DNA of 64,000 nt from NCBI GenBank assembly GCA_947479755.1, contig CANKAM010000004.1, positions 1 through 64,000 of the forward strand. The letters run 5' to 3'. A program made the translations under genes and the position numbers. Of the stretch, positions 22,437 through 48,660 are shown piece after piece. The stretch comes from Bacteroidota bacterium (GTDB taxonomy: Bacteria > Bacteroidota > Bacteroidia > SXHM01). Numbering within the stretch: the first letter of the stretch is position 1; each line of letters opens with the position of its first letter. The notes below the pieces were generated by a model, which was not told where the DNA came from, made no database searches, and saw only the letters and a program-made list of their open reading frames with translations.

Positions 22437-23003
22437 ATGAATCTAAGCACTAACCAGCAGAAATTCAAAGCCTTTCTGCTAACACACACCGACCTTACCG
22501 AAACGGAAATCAACGAACTGATTGCTAACTCTACTGAACAGCACCTTGCAAAAGGCGAATGCTTTGCCGAAGAAGGCAGGCATTGCAAACAGATTGGCTT
22601 TGTGGTAAGCGGAGTGCTGTATGCCATTGCCACCAATGCCGCAGGCACAGCGTATGTATCCTCCTTTTATGAACCCGACCAGTTGGTTACTGCCTACAAG
22701 AGTTATCACGAAGACATAACATCGTGTTGCAGCATTATAACCTTACAAGCCTCTACCGTGTTGGTGATAGACCGTGATGCATTGAAAAACCTGCTGCCAC
22801 CCGCTTACGAGAAAGACTTGCTGCTCGCTTTTTTGCATACCAGATACCTGTTTGCCGATGAACATGCAACGGAACTTGCCACCCTGAGTGTAGCCGAGCG
22901 GTACAACCACTTTTTAAAGCATCACGGTACGGTGGCTAACACTGCGCCAAAAACATTTATCGCCTCTCATTTAGGTGCTTCTCGCGGTATGCTCAGCCGA
23001 TAA
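22437..23003 (+). CDS. Crp/Fnr family transcriptional regulator (C-terminally short)
   Basis: cNMP-binding-like N-terminus; HTH TFIASHLGASRGMLSR followed immediately by the stop. Confidence 0.8.
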   Translation: MNLSTNQQKFKAFLLTHTDLTETEINELIANSTEQHLAKGECFAEEGRHCKQIGFVVSGVLYAIATNAAGTAYVSSFYEPDQLVTAYKSYHEDITSCCSIITLQASTVLVIDRDALKNLLPPAYEKDLLLAFLHTRYLFADEHATELATLSVAERYNHFLKHHGTVANTAPKTFIASHLGASRGMLSR

Positions 23004-23043: not shown

Positions 23044-23126
23044 TGCGTTTTGCTTTTCAATACCCTTCCTTTGTTGCCGACTTTAATCAAAAGGCAATGA
23101 ACAACCAACGCATAAATTCTTCGTCA

Positions 23127-23378
23127 CTGCGGTCAGCGACTGCCGACCACACTGCGGAGAACGATTTACTGCGGTCAGCGATTACCGACCACACTGCGGA
23201 AGGCGATTTACTGCGGTCAGCGACTGCCGACCATATTGCCAAGGACGATTTACTGCGGTCAGCGATTGCCGACTGCATTGCGGAGAACGATTTACTATGG
23301 TCAGCGACTGCCGACTGCACTGCGGAGGGCAATTTGCTGCGGTCAGCGATTGCCGACTACACTGCGGCAAGTTTTTTA
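23127..23378 (+). repeat. Array 1: six gapless 42-bp tandem units
   Basis: Units start at 23127, 23169, 23211, 23253, 23295, 23337; consensus CTGCGGTCAGCGAYTGCCGACCACACTGCGGAGAACGATTTA. Confidence 0.95.
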
Positions 23379-23417: not shown

Positions 23418-24317
23418 ATGGAACAGACCTGGAAATACGTTGACGACCAATTTATATCGGCAACCAAAAAGAGCTACAAAAAAGCCCTTAAACTCAGCAA
23501 CTATCATGACTCGGCTTTGGCGACAGCATCCACGCATGACCCTGCAATACTGATTATTTATAACCGCTACCATCCGCTGCACCTTAACTTCATCACCAAA
23601 TACAACCAGTGGATAAGCGCAGGCGGCAGTCAGGAAGGACAAACCCTGAACGTAAAGCAACAGCTCAAAATTGCCAAACTCAAAATTGTGGATTGGGAAG
23701 TAGCCATACAGGTAGTCTATCCCAAAACTACACCACGCTATAAATCCATCTTTCCTGACGGGCGCAAACCTTTTAACATCGGTGGCGTGGATTCAAACAT
23801 CAATGCCTTCAGCATCCTGAGCCTTAACATAGGCATAGACCCCGCACTGGCAATCGTAAAAGCAGAAGTGGATGCCGCCTACCTCCTCTTAGACACCGCC
23901 CGCGATAATCAGGAAGGCGCCATAGCCGAAACCAAGCACGGCAGCGGAAACGTAGAGACCGCGCGTATTGAAATCATGACCATGCAGTACCGCGACACGG
24001 CATGGGTAATGGATAACTATTACACGGATCGCGAAACGATGTGCAACACACTGATAGACCTGCAAACGCTGCGCGATAAACAGCAGAGCACGTACAATGC
24101 CACCCTTGCCATTGGCGAAACCAAGCCCATGTTGGTGCGTACTTTCGTTGCCGATGACGAGCTGCGCCTCAAAGTAGATGGGGAAGGACCTGTGGTCTTC
24201 TACCTCGCCACCACCGCAGGCGGCACCGACAGCACGGCAGTAATCCGCAACACCAACCAAGATGAGAAGGCCCTTATCAGCGAGTTTAACGTAAGCAACT
24301 ATGGCACCCACCGCTAA
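23418..24317 (+). CDS. Conserved hypothetical protein downstream of array 1
   Basis: 300-codon ORF; no signal peptide; in-frame coding-like tail continues past the TAA to 24374. Confidence 0.75.
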   Translation: MEQTWKYVDDQFISATKKSYKKALKLSNYHDSALATASTHDPAILIIYNRYHPLHLNFITKYNQWISAGGSQEGQTLNVKQQLKIAKLKIVDWEVAIQVVYPKTTPRYKSIFPDGRKPFNIGGVDSNINAFSILSLNIGIDPALAIVKAEVDAAYLLLDTARDNQEGAIAETKHGSGNVETARIEIMTMQYRDTAWVMDNYYTDRETMCNTLIDLQTLRDKQQSTYNATLAIGETKPMLVRTFVADDELRLKVDGEGPVVFYLATTAGGTDSTAVIRNTNQDEKALISEFNVSNYGTHR

Positions 24318-34568: not shown

Positions 34569-37500
34569 CTACTGCGGCCTGCCACTCAGCACTGTTACGC
34601 GCCCTCTGTAAGTGTGCAAGCCATCATACATATCTTTTATAAGAAAGGTATAGCTGTAAACATCCTGCGTTGCCAGTTGATTTGATTTTTCAATTACTCC
34701 GTTCCACTTTATATCTTCATCAAACGAAGAGAAAACCTGCTCGCCCCAGCGATTATAAATACGCATTTCATAACCGGTAATTCCTATGCCTGTTCCATAG
34801 AAGTAATCGTTATTACCATCTTCATTTGGTGTAAATGTGTTGGGAATATAGAACGTGAAACTCGGGTCTATGTAAACAGTGAAATAAGCCGTGTCTTTGC
34901 ATCCAAACTGATTGGTAACAATCTGTTCAATAATATAGGTTCCGGTGTCGGGATAATTGTGTGAAGGCTGTTGTAAAGGCGAATTAGTGTTGTCACCAAA
35001 ATCATATTGCCATTGATTTGCACCTGAAGACAAGTCGTTGATTTCAATGTAAGGATAAATGATTTCGGCACGCTCGGGTGTAGCTGTAAAAGAAGCAACA
35101 GGTTTAGGATAAACGGTAATCATTGAAAATGCAGTATCGCTTACAGTACAACCGTTGGAGGTTTTGGCCTGCAGAACAACATCAAACACTCCGGCAGTGT
35201 CGTAAATGTGTAAAGGATTTTGATCAGATGCTGTGTTACCATCACCAAATTCCCAAAGCCACCATACAATGTTATAACCGGGAGCAACAATAGAAAGGTC
35301 AGTAAAATTAACAGGTAGCGGTTGACAACCTTCTATAATATCGGAAGTAAAATCCACATCAGGCAGAGGGAAAACCTCAACAGGCAGAATAACATCGGCA
35401 ATGCAACCGCTGTCTGAAGTAACAGTAAGGTTCACATTAAATATTCCGGCATTGGAGTAGGTATGAAAAGAGTTCTGCAAGGTGGAAGTTCCGCCATCAT
35501 TGAAATTCCAGTCCCAGTTAATGATGGTTCCCTGAGGAATAGTTGACTCATCAGTAAAAGCAGTTGTTGCATTGAGGCAAACGGATGTGGCGCTGAAATC
35601 TGCTGTTGGAACAGGATGAACGCGTATTGTAAAAATCGTATCTTCTTCACAACCAAAATCGCTGGCAACGGTAAGGCTTACATCAAATGTTCCGTAAGTA
35701 GAAAATGTATAAAGCGGATTTGCATTATTGGTAATAACACCATTGTCATCAAAATCATAGGTCCATGATTCAACACCGCCAAAAGCAATATCGCTTAAGT
35801 CGGTAAAGGCTGTTGCTGTACCCAGACACTCGGTTGTTGCAACAAAATCAGGAACAGGAGTTGGATAAACACCAATTGTTTGTTCGATGGTGTCTTTGCA
35901 GCTTCCGCCTGATGTAACAATGAGTTGTACATCATAGCCGCCCCAATTAGGAAATGAATGTGCAGGTGGTGCAGCACCAACAAACACAGCACTTCCATCA
36001 TCAAAATCCCATTCCCATTGGGTAATGTTTCCGGAGGGAATAGTGCTTTCATCCACAAACACTGCTGTTTCGTTCTGACAAATATCTGTGAAAGAAAAAT
36101 CAGCAACCGGTAAATCAGAAACTGTGATAGGTCCGGTTTCACTATCGGTGCAGCCATCGTTGCTGGTTACCTGAATGCCTACAGTATAATTTCCGGGAGC
36201 GAGGTATTGATAAACGGTATCCTGAGCAGCAACCGAAAATATTCCATTACCGAACGACCAAACCCAGCCTGTTATAGTTCCCGCAGGAATTGTTGAATTA
36301 TCTGTAAACGTGCTGATATCACCGAGGCAGGCATCGGTAGCTGTAAAATCTGCAACTGGGACATGATACACCGTTACAGGTTGTGTGATTGCATCGGTGC
36401 ATCCAAAATCAGAAACAACAGAGAGCGTAACATTGAACGTGTTGCCAACGCTGTAAATGTGTTGTGCGTTAATATCGGTTGAAGGTGCTGTTCCGTCACC
36501 AAAGTTCCAGTTCCAGGTTGCAATTAAACCGGTATTGATGACTGTTAAATCAGTGAAATCGGTTACGCTTGCAGCACAAACGGAAGTGCTGCTGAAATCA
36601 GCAACGGGAGCAGGATAAACTGTTACAGGGTATGAGATGGTGGAAGAACAATTTGCATTAGATGTTGCCGTAAGCGAAACATTGTACGTTCCGTCTGCGG
36701 CATAAATGTGTGGCGGATTTTGTGAAGCAGAAGTATTTCCGTCATCAAAATCCCAATCCCATTGATTGATGGTTCCGGAAGTAATGGTGCTCAGGTCAGT
36801 AAACTGAGTTGCAGTTCCCATGCATTCAGTTGTGGCTGAAAAATCAGGTGTCGGCAGCGGGTTCACGGTGATGATAACATCATCGGTTCCCTGACAACCA
36901 TTGACATCGGTAACGGTAAGTGTGTACGTTGTTGTAGCGGCAGGATTGGCAACAGGATTAGAAATAAACTGATCACTTAAACCGGTGTTGGGCGACCAGA
37001 GGTAATTACCGCCACCGCTTCCGGCAAGCGTAACATTGCTGCCTTCGCAAAAAGCATCATCGGCACCGGCATTGGCGGTTGCAGCCGCAAAGATGGTAAC
37101 AGCAGTAGTAGTGGCTTCAGAGCATCCGTTGATATCGGTAACCGTTAAGGAGACCGTGTAGTTTCCGGCAGCGAGATACGTATGGCTTGGGTTCTGATCG
37201 GTTGAAGTGGTTCCATCGCCAAAATCCCAGAGCCATGACAAAATAGGACCGATTGGGCTATAGCTCTGGTCATTGAAATTCGTGACAACACCCAAACAAT
37301 TATTAGAAGGCGCAATAAGAATAACGGGATTAATGGCCACACAAAAACGTTGGTCGTTTTGCGCACCGCCTGTTCCTGCGGTAAAGCCCCAGTAAACATT
37401 CGGGTTTCCACCGAAGATGTTATTGATAATATCACCGGTGTAAGAGGCAATCAATACTCCGTCAAGGTAAACGCTGAAGGAATTGGTAGCCGGATCCCAG

Positions 37501-37988
37501 GTGATACGCATAACATGATAAGCGCAGTCTTCAATATTTGCAATGCCAAAAGGACCTGCAAGATTGTTTCCACTGCCATGATTTACATCACCGTTTTGCA
37601 AAATCGCGATATGGTCGGCACCCGGATCCCAGCCGTTCTGGTAGGTATCTATTTCCACGCCCAGCGAAGGGGTAATGCCTGCATAACCTAAGCCACCACC
37701 ACTGCCACCAACAGTAGTACTCACAGGCTGCAATACAAAAACAATTCCATCCGCCCCGCCATCGTTACAACCCAGAAACACATCAAAATAAAAATCAAAA
37801 GCGTTGGTTAAATCAATCTGATTGAGATTCCAAACGGAACCACTCTGTCCGCCTGCATTGGGAGTAAGCTGATAACAGTTGCAGGAAATCTGTGAGGCAT
37901 TGCCGTTAACAGCGTATTGTGCGGAAGCCGGGAAGAAGCAGGCAGTAAAAAGTAAGCAGCAGACAGTACGTAGTAAACGCAGGAACAT
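34569..37988 (-). CDS. Multi-PKD adhesin with L-type-lectin-like N-terminus and CHU_C-type C-terminus
   Basis: Repeated WxWDFGDGxxS...NPxHxY PKD units; C-terminal IPNTFTPNEDGNNDYFYGTGIGITGYEMRIYNRWG. Confidence 0.9.
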   Translation of the reverse strand: MFLRLLRTVCCLLFTACFFPASAQYAVNGNASQISCNCYQLTPNAGGQSGSVWNLNQIDLTNAFDFYFDVFLGCNDGGADGIVFVLQPVSTTVGGSGGGLGYAGITPSLGVEIDTYQNGWDPGADHIAILQNGDVNHGSGNNLAGPFGIANIEDCAYHVMRITWDPATNSFSVYLDGVLIASYTGDIINNIFGGNPNVYWGFTAGTGGAQNDQRFCVAINPVILIAPSNNCLGVVTNFNDQSYSPIGPILSWLWDFGDGTTSTDQNPSHTYLAAGNYTVSLTVTDINGCSEATTTAVTIFAAATANAGADDAFCEGSNVTLAGSGGGNYLWSPNTGLSDQFISNPVANPAATTTYTLTVTDVNGCQGTDDVIITVNPLPTPDFSATTECMGTATQFTDLSTITSGTINQWDWDFDDGNTSASQNPPHIYAADGTYNVSLTATSNANCSSTISYPVTVYPAPVADFSSTSVCAASVTDFTDLTVINTGLIATWNWNFGDGTAPSTDINAQHIYSVGNTFNVTLSVVSDFGCTDAITQPVTVYHVPVADFTATDACLGDISTFTDNSTIPAGTITGWVWSFGNGIFSVAAQDTVYQYLAPGNYTVGIQVTSNDGCTDSETGPITVSDLPVADFSFTDICQNETAVFVDESTIPSGNITQWEWDFDDGSAVFVGAAPPAHSFPNWGGYDVQLIVTSGGSCKDTIEQTIGVYPTPVPDFVATTECLGTATAFTDLSDIAFGGVESWTYDFDDNGVITNNANPLYTFSTYGTFDVSLTVASDFGCEEDTIFTIRVHPVPTADFSATSVCLNATTAFTDESTIPQGTIINWDWNFNDGGTSTLQNSFHTYSNAGIFNVNLTVTSDSGCIADVILPVEVFPLPDVDFTSDIIEGCQPLPVNFTDLSIVAPGYNIVWWLWEFGDGNTASDQNPLHIYDTAGVFDVVLQAKTSNGCTVSDTAFSMITVYPKPVASFTATPERAEIIYPYIEINDLSSGANQWQYDFGDNTNSPLQQPSHNYPDTGTYIIEQIVTNQFGCKDTAYFTVYIDPSFTFYIPNTFTPNEDGNNDYFYGTGIGITGYEMRIYNRWGEQVFSSFDEDIKWNGVIEKSNQLATQDVYSYTFLIKDMYDGLHTYRGRVTVLSGRPQ

Positions 37989-39309: not shown

Positions 39310-39705
39310 TTAAATTAACTCATCCTCATCTGACATTTCATTAATAATTACGTCTGACAAATCAGTTCCTGTTAAGTCAGCGCCTGCTAAGTCAGCGTAT
39401 GAAAAGTTAGTGTTTTCAAGGTTAGCTTTAGAGAGATTAGCGTTTTTTAAGTTTGCCCATGATAAATCAGCCATTGATAAATCAGCGCCTGTAAGGTTAG
39501 CACCAGTGAGGTCAGCCTCCATTAGATTAGCGCCTTTTAGATTTGCGTTTCTTAGATTTGCGTTTCTTAGATTTGCGTTAGATAAATCAATATTAGATAA
39601 GTTGGCACCTTCAAGTAATATCTCTTTTAAATATCCCCCACTTAAATCAAATTTATCCTGATTGCCTTCTCTTACCTGTTCTAAAATCTTTTCTTTATCA
39701 GTCAT
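39310..39705 (-). CDS. Pentapeptide repeat protein
   Basis: Tandem A(N/D)Lxx units (ANLSNIDLSNANLRNANLRNANLKGANLMEADLTGANLTGADL). Confidence 0.9.
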   Translation of the reverse strand: MTDKEKILEQVREGNQDKFDLSGGYLKEILLEGANLSNIDLSNANLRNANLRNANLKGANLMEADLTGANLTGADLSMADLSWANLKNANLSKANLENTNFSYADLAGADLTGTDLSDVIINEMSDEDELI

Positions 39706-42022: not shown

Positions 42023-42733
42023 TTAGGCTTCCAGCACTTTTTTGCTTACAGGCTCGCTAAGTATGCTTACCCCGGCAGCATTTACTGCCCAGTAATACAT
42101 ATAATAAGTAGCCCCTATCTGCAAACCGCTGAAGGTTTTTTTACGCGCTTTATTAAAGTCGGCAATAAAGCGCAATGTACCTGTCATTGCCGGTGCTGCC
42201 GGTCCCGCTACTCCGTTATCAGTGTCAACGATTTGTCCGTTAGCATTAATACCCGTTCCCGGAGGCAACAGCTCAGCGGTAAGCAGTCCCCCGTAGCTGT
42301 CAGCACCTTCCACCACTGCACACTCGGTTACAAAGGTACCCGGCACTTCGCGGGTAATGGTAACCTGCTGTGGCTGCGAGGGCGGGTTAGACTGACTGAT
42401 ATTGCCCTTAGTAGGTACAAAGCCTGCCAGCAAAATAATGTTGGCATCGCCCAGCGCAACGCCATCTACATAGGCAGCCAGCGTATCAAAAGCCTCCATC
42501 AATGCCTCTTTGGCAATATTAAAAGGCCCCTTCTGCGCTATACCCCCGTTCTTATAGGCGCTGTAGGTATTTAAAAAGGCATCTATCAGTGCCTGCAATT
42601 GTGCCACCGAAAGCGGTGGTGTCATAAATACGACTACGTTGCCATAAATACCATCGCGTATGCCAATGGCAAATACTTCCATGTTATCATTTTTATAGAA
42701 GTGATAGCTTAATCTGCATCTTACTTTTCTCAT
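42023..42733 (-). CDS. Conserved hypothetical with helical N-terminus and fibronectin-III-like C-terminus
   Basis: FSGLQIGATYYMYYWAVNAAGVSILSEPVSKKV resembles an FnIII G-F strand; lies downstream of array 2. Confidence 0.7.
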   Translation of the reverse strand: MRKVRCRLSYHFYKNDNMEVFAIGIRDGIYGNVVVFMTPPLSVAQLQALIDAFLNTYSAYKNGGIAQKGPFNIAKEALMEAFDTLAAYVDGVALGDANIILLAGFVPTKGNISQSNPPSQPQQVTITREVPGTFVTECAVVEGADSYGGLLTAELLPPGTGINANGQIVDTDNGVAGPAAPAMTGTLRFIADFNKARKKTFSGLQIGATYYMYYWAVNAAGVSILSEPVSKKVLEA

Positions 42734-42747
42734 AATAATTGTTATTA

Positions 42748-42764
42748 GTGGCGCTTTGCGCCAC
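42748..42764. promoter_or_regulatory. Perfect hairpin GTGGCGC-TTT-GCGCCAC in the 5' region of the 42023 gene
   Basis: 7-bp perfect arms ending 15 bp upstream of the start codon. Confidence 0.5.
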
Positions 42765-42848
42765 GGGTTAGTATTAAATTCTTTAATTGTCTTTTGTTCT
42801 TAAATCTGTTTGCCGCACAGGCGGCTAACCTTTATATATAAGGCTGAT

Positions 42849-43275
42849 GAATACTTCTTTTTATGCAAAATATATGCTGCGTGACGGAGAATGTATTTTT
42901 TATAACAAAGAATACATTTTCGCTTGTGCCGAATATATTGCGTTCCGTTTTTAATGGATTAAAAGTTGCATAAACTATATCCTGCGCTGCGCTGAATGTA
43001 TTGCCGCCAGACTATAATACATTTCGGATGATGCGGAATGTATTAAAAGCTGAGCAAGATGTATTCTAAATCATTTTTAATGTATTTGGCATTACGCTGA
43101 ATACATTGTTTATAACACGGAATACATTATTTGTCGTCCGTAATACATTCGCAACCGTGCTGAATGTATTCTCAGTCGTTGAGGATATATCTTTTGCTGC
43201 GCTGAATATATTCTCAGCCGTTTTAAAAGTATCATCAGCCGTTTTAAAGGCATTTGGAGTGTTTTCCAGTATGTC
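42849..43275 (-). repeat. Array 2: ~19 gapless 21-bp units, 9-bp core plus 12-bp variable segment
   Basis: Core (G/T)AAT(R)(Y)ATT at 42889, 42910, 42931, 42952, 42973, 42994, 43015, 43036, 43057, 43078, 43099, 43120, 43141, 43162, 43183, 43204, 43225, 43246; degenerate units at both ends. Confidence 0.9.
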
Positions 43276-43430: not shown

Positions 43431-43874
43431 TTAAAGCCTCCAGAGGGCAAGTACTTCTTTCAGCGCTGTGCGTTTATCGGGTGCTACATACAGGCTGGTA
43501 TCTTTCAGATAGCACAGTTTAAGGATACCATCGGCACCGCGAAAGCGTATCATGCGCAGGTTTATGATGGTACCGCGGTGTATGCGCATAAAGCCAATAA
43601 GAGTGGGCATTTCTTCAACTGATTTAAGGGTGGCGCAAATGCGGTAGCGCTTTACATTTTCAGTAAGGTATGATTCTACTACATAAAAATCAACGTAGTT
43701 GCCTTCCGCCTGCGCATACAGGATATCGCTTATAAAAACGGAGTAAGCACCATCTGCACAGGGCAACTCAATTTTATGCCCCTGCTGTATATAGGTGAGG
43801 TTGGCACCGCAAGAAGGGCAATGCCAGAGGGATAAACCTGTTGACGGAAATAAAGAATACTGATGCTGAATCAT
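43431..43874 (-). CDS. Stand-alone LytTR-domain regulator with N-terminal CPSCG motif
   Basis: ILYAQAEGNYVDFYVVE...FMRIHRGTIINLRMI typical of LytTR; start trimmed to MIQHQYSLFP. Confidence 0.75.
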   Translation of the reverse strand: MIQHQYSLFPSTGLSLWHCPSCGANLTYIQQGHKIELPCADGAYSVFISDILYAQAEGNYVDFYVVESYLTENVKRYRICATLKSVEEMPTLIGFMRIHRGTIINLRMIRFRGADGILKLCYLKDTSLYVAPDKRTALKEVLALWRL

Positions 43875-43970
43875 AGCGTTAAGGTTTAGTTTAACAATAC
43901 AAGAAAAACAACAGACACCCGCTGCGGGGCTTTTGTACTCCGCAGCCGGCAAGGCTCTGTAAAAATTATG

Positions 43971-44484: not shown

Positions 44485-47400
44485 CTACTCCCCCGCCAGC
44501 ACCGTCACCTTACCCCTATACGAATGGTCATTACCAAACACATCAGTAATACGGAAAGCATAGACATAGACATCCTGGGCGGCTAATTGGTTGGTCTTTG
44601 TGATTACCCCGTTCCACTTTTCGTTTTCATCAAATGCGGCAAACACTTGTTCGCCCCAACGATTGAAGATGCGCATTTCATAACCGGTAATTCCTATGCC
44701 GGTGCCGAAGAAATAATCGTTATCGCCATCGGCATTGGGTGTAAAGGAATTGGGGATGTAAAAAGTAAAGGCAGCATCTATGTTAACGATGCGCTGAATG
44801 GTGTCCTTGCAGCCGAACTGATTGGTAACAATCTGCTGAACAATGTATGTTCCTGTATCGGCATAGGAATGTTGCGGGCTTTGTAAAGCTGCATTGGTAT
44901 TGTCACCAAAATCATATTGCCACTGATTGGCACCCGATGAATTATCGGTAAAATCAAGGTGCGGATATATGATAGTAGTTGGTTGTGGTGAAGTACTGAA
45001 GTTGGCCACCGGCTTGGGATGCACGGTAATCATATTTGCAATGGTGTCTGAATTATCGCAGCCGTTTCCTGATTTTACATGCAATATAACACTGAACACA
45101 CCGGCAGTATCAAAAACGTGTAACGGATTTTGAAAGGATGAAGAATTGCCGTCACCAAAATCCCAGAGCCACCACACAATGTTATAACCGGGCGCAATGA
45201 TGGATAGGTCGGTAAAATTAACCGCCAGCGGCTGACAGCCTTCTATAATATCGGAAGTGAAATCTACATCGGGAGCAGGGAAAACCTCAACAGGAAGGAT
45301 GGCATCAGCAACGCAACCGCTGTCGGAAGTAACGGTAAGGTTTACGTTAAAAATGCCTGCGTTGGAATAGGTATGCGAAGAATTTTGAAGTGTTGAAGTA
45401 GCGCCATCGTTAAAGTTCCAGTCCCACGCAACATTATTGCCAAAGGGAATGGACGACAAATCAGTAAAGTCAGTTACAGTGCCCAGACAAACGGCAGTTG
45501 CAGAAAAATTAACATCCGGCAGTGCATTTACAATTACTGAATACGTAGTGTCAGCCTCGCAACCAAAATCACTGGCAACGGTAAGGGTAACATCAAAAAT
45601 GCCATTCGTTGAAAAGGTGTAAAGCGGATTGGAGTTATTGGTGATAACACCGTTGTCGTTAAAATCATAGGTCCATGATTCAACATTGCCAAAAGCAATT
45701 CCGCTTAAATCAGTAAAGACTGTTACGGTTCCGTAACAAGCTGTTGTAGCAGTAAAATCGGGTTCGGGAATGGGATAGACTGCAATGTTATTAAAAGTTG
45801 TATCGCTGCAGCCGCCCTGCGAAGTAACAATGAGCGAAACGGTATAAAGTCCCATGTTACCATAGCTATGTGCAGGCGGATTGCTGCCTGAAAACACGGG
45901 AGAACCATCACCAAAATCCCAATCCCATTGTGAGAGAATGCCTGTTGCGATAAAACTCTGGTCTGTGAATATTGCAGCATCATTCTGACAAATATCGTTG
46001 GTTGCAAATGCTGCAACCGGAATGTTGTCAACCAGTAACAATGTGGTTTGGGTGTCGGTGCAGCCCATGTCAGATACCACTTGCAGCCCCACTAAATAGC
46101 TTGCTGCAACCGGGTAGGCATAAACAGTATCCTGAGCCGAAGAAAAATTTCCGTTACCAAAACTCCATGTCCATGCATTGATTGAACCGGATGAGATGGT
46201 TGACAAATCGGTGAACACACTGGTATCACCAAGACAGGAATTGGTGGCGCTGAAAACTGCAACAGGCTTGGGATAAACGGTAACGGTTTGCGTGAGTGAG
46301 TCCATGCAACCGAAGTCGGAAGTAAGCACCAGCTTCACATCAAAATTTCCATCGGCAGAATAAATGTGAACCGGATTTTGCTCGTTGGAATTACTGGAGA
46401 TATCACCAAAGGTCCAGTCCCAGGCAACAATGGAACCATTAGCAATGGTTGAGTTATCGGTGAAGTCGGCAGGACTTTGTTCGCAGGCAGTAGTGTTACT
46501 GAAAGCAGGCAACGGCAAGTCGCGCACCGTTATATTTTGTGAGAGCGAACCCGGGCAACCATTATCCGAAACAACTGAGAGCGCTGCATTAAAGTTGCCT
46601 GTTGCAGGATAACTGTGTACCGGATTTTGTTGCGCAGAGGCGGGGCTTCCGTCACCAAAATCCCATGACCACGAATTGATTGTTCCCGCTGCAAGGATTG
46701 ACTGGTCGGTGAATTGCAGTGCACTGTTCATGCAGGCATTGGAAAAACTAAAATCGGGAACAGGTATAGGAAATGCTTCAACGGTTTGCGAAAAAGTAGT
46801 AGTGCAATTATTATCAGCGGTGGCAACCAGCGTAACATTAAACTGCCCTGTGTTAGTGAAACTGTGTGTTGTATTTTGTGTGTTGGCAACCGGAGAACCG
46901 TCACCAAAATTCCATGTCCAATCGGTAATGCTTCCGGAAGGGAAAGCAGTCTGGTCGGTGAAGTTCACCACTGTTCCTGCGCATTCATCTGTGAATGCAA
47001 AATCGACCTGCGGTGCAGGATTTACGGTAACATCCTGCAAAATGGTATCGCGGCAACCGATGTTATTTTCAGAAACCAAACGCACGGTAAATGTTCCCGA
47101 AGAATTAAAAGTATGCACAGGATTTTGAGCGATGGAAGTATTACCATCACCAAAATCCCAATTCCATGACGTAATGTTGGTGCCTCCCCCGCTTTGCGAT
47201 GCATCAGTAAAATTGGTAGCTGAACCTTCGCAGGCAGTATTGAATGTAAAGTCAGCAACCGGATTGTTGATGTACGTGATCACAACAGTATCACTGCCTG
47301 TGCAGCCATTGAGTGCATCCGTAACATCTGCATACCATGTTCCTTCAGCAGCATTGATGGAAGCTGAGGTTTCGCCTGTGTTCCAGAGGTAAGTGTAATT

Positions 47401-48660
47401 TCCGTTGCCGCCTGTAACCGTTGCATTCAGGGCGGTCTGGTTAACGCAGGAAATATTCTGGTCGGCACCTAAATCAACATTAACGCCTTCTACGGTGATG
47501 CAAAAAGAATAAACCGAAGTGCCGTAATACTGACAGTTATCGTCTTTTACCTGCACGGTAAAACAATGCGGAATGTTGCTGATGTCGGCTTGCGTGGGTG
47601 TCCAGCAAAACTGCGCCTGCGGGCGTTGTCCGTTACCGGCATTAAAAGTTGCCGCAGGAATTGCGTTGTTCCAACTGAGCGATAAATTCTGTGCGACATC
47701 AGCATCAAAACTATTGATAAAGAAACAGAGATTAGCATTCGCACAAGTTGAAATGGTGTAGTTTCCGCTACCCGTTCCTGCACCTGTTAAATCAATGCCA
47801 TCAATAGAAGGCAAGTCATTGGTACAGTTAACAACGCGTATCTGCAAATCGCGCATCACCGAACCAATCAGTTGTCCGTTCCGGTATTCTTGCACCAACA
47901 CAGCAACCACCGCCACTTCCAATGCCTGCGGTGTCATGCAGATATCACCTGTGGCATTATCAAACGTAACGGCAGGATTGGAACTCAAAGGTTGAGTAGC
48001 CGAAAAACCACCTAAATAGGTTACAGAAGAACCCGAAGCATTTAAAGGTGCAACCAATGAATACACGAGCGAATCTCCATCGGCATCAATGGCACCGTGA
48101 TTGAAACAAAAGGTTTGTCCCACGCAGATAAACGGCACCGGATTATTTGAAAATGCAGGAGAACTGTTGCAGGTAACATTCAGGTTGTCGAGCGTTGCTT
48201 CAACCCGAATGTTCTGATTTCCGGGATCAAAAATAGTATTGGTAGCAGTATTGCGGCAACACAAATCGTAACTAAAAACCCAGTCGCTGCAATTGGCAGG
48301 AAGCATAACAGTGTTGGTGTAAATATATTCTTGTACGCCCGGCAGAACACCGCCCGAACATTCGGTAGTAGCACTTTGGCAAATGGGAGAAACCTCCTGC
48401 CCCGTTCCGGGAAGCGGATTTAAGTTGATGGTAAAATTTTGTCCGCACGTTGCTGAACTCACAGTAATGATAGCAGCGTTGGGCGCAGCCACACCCGCAC
48501 AATCACGGTAAAAGGAAAGCGTAACACGGTATTGATTTCCGCCAAGACACTCATACGTTAAGTCGGCACCCTGAGAATGCGAAGCACTCACGCTTCCGGC
48601 TGAAAAGAACAAAGCAAGAAGCAGAACAAAAACTTTGAAGATGCAGTTCCTGTTAAACAT
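44485..48660 (-). CDS. Very large multi-PKD adhesin with CHU_C-type C-terminus, paralog of the 34569 gene
   Basis: Signal peptide, about nine PKD-like units, IPNSFTPNADGDNDYFFGTGIGITGYEMRIFNRWG tail. Confidence 0.9.
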   Translation of the reverse strand: MFNRNCIFKVFVLLLALFFSAGSVSASHSQGADLTYECLGGNQYRVTLSFYRDCAGVAAPNAAIITVSSATCGQNFTINLNPLPGTGQEVSPICQSATTECSGGVLPGVQEYIYTNTVMLPANCSDWVFSYDLCCRNTATNTIFDPGNQNIRVEATLDNLNVTCNSSPAFSNNPVPFICVGQTFCFNHGAIDADGDSLVYSLVAPLNASGSSVTYLGGFSATQPLSSNPAVTFDNATGDICMTPQALEVAVVAVLVQEYRNGQLIGSVMRDLQIRVVNCTNDLPSIDGIDLTGAGTGSGNYTISTCANANLCFFINSFDADVAQNLSLSWNNAIPAATFNAGNGQRPQAQFCWTPTQADISNIPHCFTVQVKDDNCQYYGTSVYSFCITVEGVNVDLGADQNISCVNQTALNATVTGGNGNYTYLWNTGETSASINAAEGTWYADVTDALNGCTGSDTVVITYINNPVADFTFNTACEGSATNFTDASQSGGGTNITSWNWDFGDGNTSIAQNPVHTFNSSGTFTVRLVSENNIGCRDTILQDVTVNPAPQVDFAFTDECAGTVVNFTDQTAFPSGSITDWTWNFGDGSPVANTQNTTHSFTNTGQFNVTLVATADNNCTTTFSQTVEAFPIPVPDFSFSNACMNSALQFTDQSILAAGTINSWSWDFGDGSPASAQQNPVHSYPATGNFNAALSVVSDNGCPGSLSQNITVRDLPLPAFSNTTACEQSPADFTDNSTIANGSIVAWDWTFGDISSNSNEQNPVHIYSADGNFDVKLVLTSDFGCMDSLTQTVTVYPKPVAVFSATNSCLGDTSVFTDLSTISSGSINAWTWSFGNGNFSSAQDTVYAYPVAASYLVGLQVVSDMGCTDTQTTLLLVDNIPVAAFATNDICQNDAAIFTDQSFIATGILSQWDWDFGDGSPVFSGSNPPAHSYGNMGLYTVSLIVTSQGGCSDTTFNNIAVYPIPEPDFTATTACYGTVTVFTDLSGIAFGNVESWTYDFNDNGVITNNSNPLYTFSTNGIFDVTLTVASDFGCEADTTYSVIVNALPDVNFSATAVCLGTVTDFTDLSSIPFGNNVAWDWNFNDGATSTLQNSSHTYSNAGIFNVNLTVTSDSGCVADAILPVEVFPAPDVDFTSDIIEGCQPLAVNFTDLSIIAPGYNIVWWLWDFGDGNSSSFQNPLHVFDTAGVFSVILHVKSGNGCDNSDTIANMITVHPKPVANFSTSPQPTTIIYPHLDFTDNSSGANQWQYDFGDNTNAALQSPQHSYADTGTYIVQQIVTNQFGCKDTIQRIVNIDAAFTFYIPNSFTPNADGDNDYFFGTGIGITGYEMRIFNRWGEQVFAAFDENEKWNGVITKTNQLAAQDVYVYAFRITDVFGNDHSYRGKVTVLAGE

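Follow-up and report, generated by a model that had tools for sequence, protein, structure and literature searches.

LytTR proteins bind 9-bp repeats that mostly lie 12 bp apart, and the spacing of these sites is better conserved than their sequence (PMC6193735). The small regulator BldC forms filaments through cooperative binding to phased direct repeats, whose number varies (PMC5859096). boxA precedes long untranslated transcripts, among them CRISPR arrays and rRNA (PMC7862264, PMC5725501). In Porphyromonas gingivalis, the minisatellite MITE BrickBuilt is composed of 23-nt tandem units and occurs in many intergenic copies; elements with 41-nt units are mentioned in the same paper (PMC4596501). 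Tandem repeats can also be reported by CRISPR finders as false CRISPRs (PMC5294841). Here, a 21-bp array is described that is located between a LytTR regulator gene and the gene for a 236-aa protein in the window, i.e. the whole 64,000-nucleotide stretch of Bacteroidota DNA that was analysed. Judged by sequence, it belongs to a class in which geometry is common and sequence is private: The period is almost always 21 bp across about 100 arrays, a number obtained by extrapolation.

The array in the window and its cassette

From position 42868 onward, 19 units follow each other in exact 21-bp steps, as the preliminary description had reported (Table 1). Within 42868-43275, identity is 0.49 at lag 21 and drops to about 0.25 at the two neighbouring lags (20 and 22); the best lag exceeds all 2000 dinucleotide shuffles (null maximum 0.379). 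Unit columns 7-8 read AT in 19 of 19 units and, therefore, a net phase shift is absent. The array edges are approximate, since the outermost few units on both sides are weak. Columns 2-9 are the best conserved ones (0.7-1.9 bits), and the cores comprise AATGTATT and AATACATT (five each), AATATATT (two) and seven degenerate forms. AATATATT is a palindrome, and one transition suffices to turn it into either AATGTATT or AATACATT, so that no inversion of units has to be assumed: The flip of core polarity described before is explained by two alternative transitions of one symmetric core. Column 15 is a pyrimidine in all 19 units and columns 17 and 18 are conserved, too. This means, the 12-bp parts belong to a degenerate repeat and are not independent spacers. 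They vary, as had been noted, but not freely, and the related 12-mers that had looked duplicative are less diverged copies of this repeat.

Consequently, the term 'CRISPR-shaped' does not apply. The array is not a CRISPR array: Instead of near-identical repeats and unrelated spacers, it has a degenerate 9-bp core and the three constrained columns named above. No cas gene is present among the neighbouring ORFs that were read, four of which were checked against Pfam. An origin from a 7-bp microsatellite was rejected, as signals at lags 7 and 14 are absent from the window array and other families have 20 or 22 bp. A described structured RNA was rejected as well, since Rfam yielded no match at the gathering threshold in the window.

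A minus-strand frame of the window array reads NTFSxxx heptads, and more arrays than column-permuted versions contain an open frame. Both observations would suit a protein of seven-residue repeats or its decayed remnant. Against this reading, stops occur in six of six frames across the window array, with two in-frame stops and no conserved start codon seen, 14% of the arrays have a period not divisible by 3, and open frames are found antisense (41/79) as often as sense (42/79). As the sense-strand frame is not preserved, a repeat-protein coding sequence was rejected. Coding by the window array is very unlikely, and heptad coding as an explanation of the arrays has hardly any probability left. 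The earlier statement that the register is kept without coding is therefore borne out.

Read along the minus strand, the LytTR regulator is followed by the boxA-like motif GTTCTTTGACATA, the array and the 236-aa protein gene. The predicted structure of the 236-aa protein has a mean pLDDT of 91, and its best PDB matches are Fn3 domains. GYTCTTTGA lies on the transcribed strand and differs at one position from the gamma-proteobacterial boxA consensus GYTCTTTAANA (PMC5725501). In the 3.9-Mb assembly, the exact motif YTCTTTGACATAYTG has five sites and no others, each of which precedes an array and a paralogue of the 236-aa protein gene. The form for comparison with rRNA leaders is GYTCTTTGACATA; 16S rRNA is absent from this assembly. 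Thirteen one-mismatch matches at contig ends were discarded as copies of one repeated element. With 13 or more copies, this element (L048, L050-L061 at contig ends of G000) interrupts the assembly; its conserved end contains GTTCTTTGAAATATTG, which differs from the boxA-like motif by one mismatch. The window contains a second array flanked by a Crp-type regulator gene and a long-helix protein gene; its unit is found again near 88228 on contig C7, in an orphan array.

Table 1. Features of the window
Feature	Position	Strand	Remarks
21-bp array, 19 units, core RAATRYATT (plus-strand reading)	42868..43266	-	lag-21 peak, above all shuffles
Putative boxA-like motif GTTCTTTGACATACTGGAAAA	43262..43282	-	array 5' edge; GYTCTTTGA without variation at 14 array loci within the genus
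236-aa protein gene	42023..42733	-	helical N-terminal part, C-terminal Fn3 domain
Gap between array and start codon, 134 bp	42734..42867	-	
LytTR-domain DNA-binding regulator	43431..43874	-	Pfam LytTR 7e-10; ORF start possibly upstream, 43952
Second array, 42-bp (2 x 21) units	23126..23367	+	
Cyclic-nucleotide-binding (Crp-type) regulator	22437..23003	+	upstream of second array
Long-helix protein, poorly modelled beta-rich C-terminus	23418..24317	+	downstream of second array; mean pLDDT 70
Two large related repeat proteins, gliding-type C-termini	34569..37988 and 44485..48660		flanking region
Pentapeptide-repeat-like coding sequence	39310..39705		15-bp period; ordinary coding repeat

Recurrence in relatives and within the genome

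Homologous cassettes recur. Of 60 relatives, 11 have homologues, as do 52 of the 395 genomes examined from the class. A sample of 396 genomes from across the phylum yielded six with homologues, two of which lie outside the class. A periodic array is present in 95 of 111 regions upstream of homologues (three further regions were too short) compared to six of 64 downstream controls, the other 58 having none; as the homologues share ancestry, these counts are not independent. Arrays in the same phase are present in relatives, and the preliminary description thereby passes its own test, since random periods in close relatives or absence at orthologous loci had been named as outcomes that would speak against it. 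Homologue-linked arrays occur in 12 families of the class. The top lags of the 95 arrays are 42 (53), 21 (16), 63 (11) and 44 (5), followed by 66, 61 and 62 (two each) and 65, 41, 40 and 20 (one each). Mean unit length is 21.03 +/- 0.34 bp (s.d.), in agreement with the two-helical-turn geometry suggested before. Gene calls were simple ORFs, and array edges were set by a threshold. Many arrays of family f8 (L127, L150, L152, L156, L157, L171), whose sole sampled genome is GC-rich, have 22-bp units with lags of 44 and 66.

Unit sequences are mostly unrelated between arrays despite the common period. Most arrays of the own genus adjoin a DNA-binding regulator gene, of LytTR, LuxR or Crp type according to Pfam or XRE-like by ORF reading. 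Since regulators were picked automatically and partly wrongly, only one pair of loci (L062/L082) is relied on: Its regulators are 83% identical and its arrays strongly diverged, and a strict pairing of regulator and array was rejected. Proteins up to 87% identical may carry unrelated arrays. The proteins of L324, L325 and L209 have differing helical N-termini and a common C-terminal stretch, LRIKNTTAGPxIGGLFFYxA...QNQGP, which suggests that array-linked proteins might be assembled modularly. Among the proteins read as helical plus beta-sandwich, a carboxypeptidase-regulatory-like domain was found in three of ten tested with Pfam and Fn3 in seven of 25 members of alignment A2; beyond such generic domains, our scans assigned the genes to no specific family of Pfam, NCBIfam or PHROG.

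When 1.25 Mb of the own genome were scanned without bias, 34 intergenic periodic arrays emerged and, in addition, one 15-bp coding repeat. Lags are 21 (11), 42 (16), 63 (2), 41 (3), 47 (1) and 7 (1), so that 32 of 34 arrays are at lag 21, 41, 42 or 63. A further 0.27 Mb gave a similar picture. The density of about 27 arrays per Mb extrapolates to about 100 per genome. This density, the common period of private sequences and the recurring gene cassette go beyond what had been seen in the window. By our reading of the genes, about half of the scanned arrays lie 5' of helical and beta-sandwich genes of several families. One 21-bp array (L034, contig C34, 1105-1360) precedes the gene for a different long-helix protein and adjoins a run of CTGTTGG heptamers. 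The 34 arrays are mostly unrelated to one another, and a BrickBuilt-type MITE with its one sequence was accordingly rejected.

The other half of the scanned arrays are orphans away from such genes. Several lie between convergent genes, where an obvious promoter to control is absent between the terminators. One orphan of about 24 21-bp units (L319, contig C6, ~71301-71921) is located between an OmpA-like gene and parA; two species of the genus (G000, G001) have this array in front of parA, and two others (G003, G004) lack it. In 400 kb from two genomes without the gene family, one weak lag-21 match and no strong array were found, and 400 kb from two genomes with the family contained none outside coding sequence. 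Orphans may therefore be specific to this genus.

Of 18 orphans tested, eight have a unit that recurs in one other array of the genome, although two of these matches are weak (65-72% identity). The partner precedes a helical/beta-sandwich gene in seven of the pairs; in the remaining, eighth pair, each array follows the same small HTH-type gene. Except for this eighth pair, similarity is mostly limited to the array. Such pairs would be expected if a cassette product recognized its private unit at its own and at orphan arrays and thereby organized or co-regulated distant loci. The identities of 72-87% are, however, equally consistent with decayed copies, two pairs are weak, no orphan partner was found for the window array, and orphans are absent in 400 kb from two other families. 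Recognition in trans is accordingly regarded as improbable.

Alternatively, the arrays might be satellite-like elements without host function, spread and homogenized by unequal exchange and copying. In-register exchange would preserve the period, and orphans would be tolerated insertions. Several observations are in line with this idea: The sequences are private and turn over fast, repeats of higher order (42 and 63 bp) exist, the fraction of transitions is ordinary (0.49) and free of strand bias, and orphans occupy tolerant intergenic sites, with presence or absence upstream of parA. The idea is at odds with the fixed position beside one gene family in 12 families, the rarity of indels, the narrow period across unrelated sequences and the conserved motif and order. 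We consider a satellite-like origin unlikely, but it remains live. The transition data also led to the rejection of programmed mutation. Reverse-transcriptase copying of orphans was rejected, too, as RVT_1 was not found in the genome, whose assembly lacks some repeats. The same applies to a phage or plasmid origin: tblastn gave no match for one distant member, and A1 has no relative on viral contigs.

DNA-level dyads or an RNA leader

Self-complementarity of the arrays exceeds that of two controls, namely column-permuted versions (z -1.9 on average, p ~2e-13) and synthetic arrays assembled from random genomic units (z -2.24 vs. 0.01 on average, p 7e-7). This self-complementarity has no strand preference (p 0.86), and compensatory substitutions are not in excess (209 seen, 212 expected). 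Both results favour DNA-level dyads over a maintained RNA fold, and hairpins maintained by compensatory change were rejected. Two turns correspond to 21 bp in B-DNA and to 22 bp in A-form RNA; the mean unit is nearer to the former. Indels and substitutions number 4:259 in arrays and 16:282 in flanks of homologous loci (Fisher p 0.011). Per substitution, indels are thus about fourfold rarer in arrays, a ratio based on few events and approximate edges. Intrinsic AT-tract bending was rejected, as a 10.5-bp AT-tract signal is absent (mean z 0.02). Of the DNA- or RNA-level role proposed before, these sequence comparisons favour the DNA side, with the arrays acting as dyads in phase.

The array could instead act as RNA: A boxA-antiterminated repetitive leader might serve, e.g., as scaffold for the Fn3-type protein or control termination or translation. 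The boxA-like motif was observed in this genus only; it is found on the sense strand at 13 of 89 arrays, never antisense (0.7 expected), and is located at the array's 5' edge. The array ends at most 60 bp from the start codon in 30 of 95 loci, which leaves little room for a promoter. Motif and short gap suggest that the array is transcribed, boxA is known upstream of CRISPR arrays (PMC7862264), and self-complementarity would suit a folded leader. The lack of strand preference and of compensatory changes, a period that fits B-DNA and not A-form RNA, orphans between terminators and the lack of an Rfam match in the window argue against an RNA-level function. An RNA role also remains live, though we think it unlikely.

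A proposed phased platform and its relation to known systems

We tentatively prefer a helically phased DNA platform for cooperative binding by the cassette regulator, which may also be transcribed as a boxA-protected leader. The recurring cassette would comprise a small DNA-binding regulator, the boxA-like motif, a private 21-bp array and a helical/beta-sandwich gene. A short dyad-like core every two B-DNA turns would place all sites on one face of the helix. The cassette regulator, in the window the LytTR protein, would load cooperatively over about 400 bp and thereby control how the gene downstream is expressed. The array might double as an untranslated leader, with the boxA-like motif providing antitermination. 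Unit length, self-complementarity without strand bias, rare indels, adjoining regulators, LytTR geometry and the sense-strand motif lend the platform its provisional support. Orphans with no obvious promoter to control, the absent AT-tract signal and a boxA-like motif confined to one genus count against it and keep our preference a guarded one. For the window, the fit is specific: A core in columns 1-9 and a 12-bp interval adjoin a Pfam LytTR gene (43431-43952), so that the neighbouring gene may be relevant, as had been supposed; the window core has no match to the published LytTR consensus. The weak point of the platform is its generality, because arrays beside other regulator types have the same period and arrays change faster than regulators and proteins. 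As regulator types vary while the period stays, LytTR geometry cannot explain the whole class.

If the platform proposal holds, some Bacteroidota genomes contain about 100 non-coding arrays that keep their geometry but not their sequence, and selection on DNA phase would be separable from selection on sequence. Natural 20-, 21- and 22-bp variants, one being the 22-bp family f8, would be available for studying helical-phase dependence. An unstudied regulatory or chromosome-organizing system would be indicated. That it is a previously undescribed multi-copy Bacteroidota cassette system, in which each helical/beta-sandwich gene has a private, fast-changing array in two-turn phase and orphans are recognized in trans, is rather doubtful.

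A limited keyword search of the open-access literature found no described system that matches this arrangement. False-CRISPR tandem repeats are similar in being a repeat class that CRISPR finders can report; a common period, cassette or orphan partners are not described in the part of that source consulted (PMC5294841). Like BrickBuilt, the arrays are intergenic, tandem and multi-copy in Bacteroidota. BrickBuilt, however, has one common sequence and terminal inverted repeats, whereas the arrays are private and located in gene cassettes (PMC4596501). As with boxA-led CRISPR arrays and rRNA, a boxA-like motif stands before a potentially long, untranslated, repetitive transcript, but here it is putative, the unit has 21 bp and spacers are lacking (PMC7862264, PMC5725501). 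BldC resembles the proposed platform in its cooperative loading of phased repeats; its repeat step is shorter, its repeats are few, and a BldC homologue was not identified here (PMC5859096). LytTR operators share with the window array the 21-bp step of 9-bp sites and 12-bp spacers, the primacy of spacing over sequence and the adjacent regulator gene. They differ in having two sites per promoter instead of 19, and other arrays of the class are located beside XRE, LuxR or Crp-type genes (PMC6193735).
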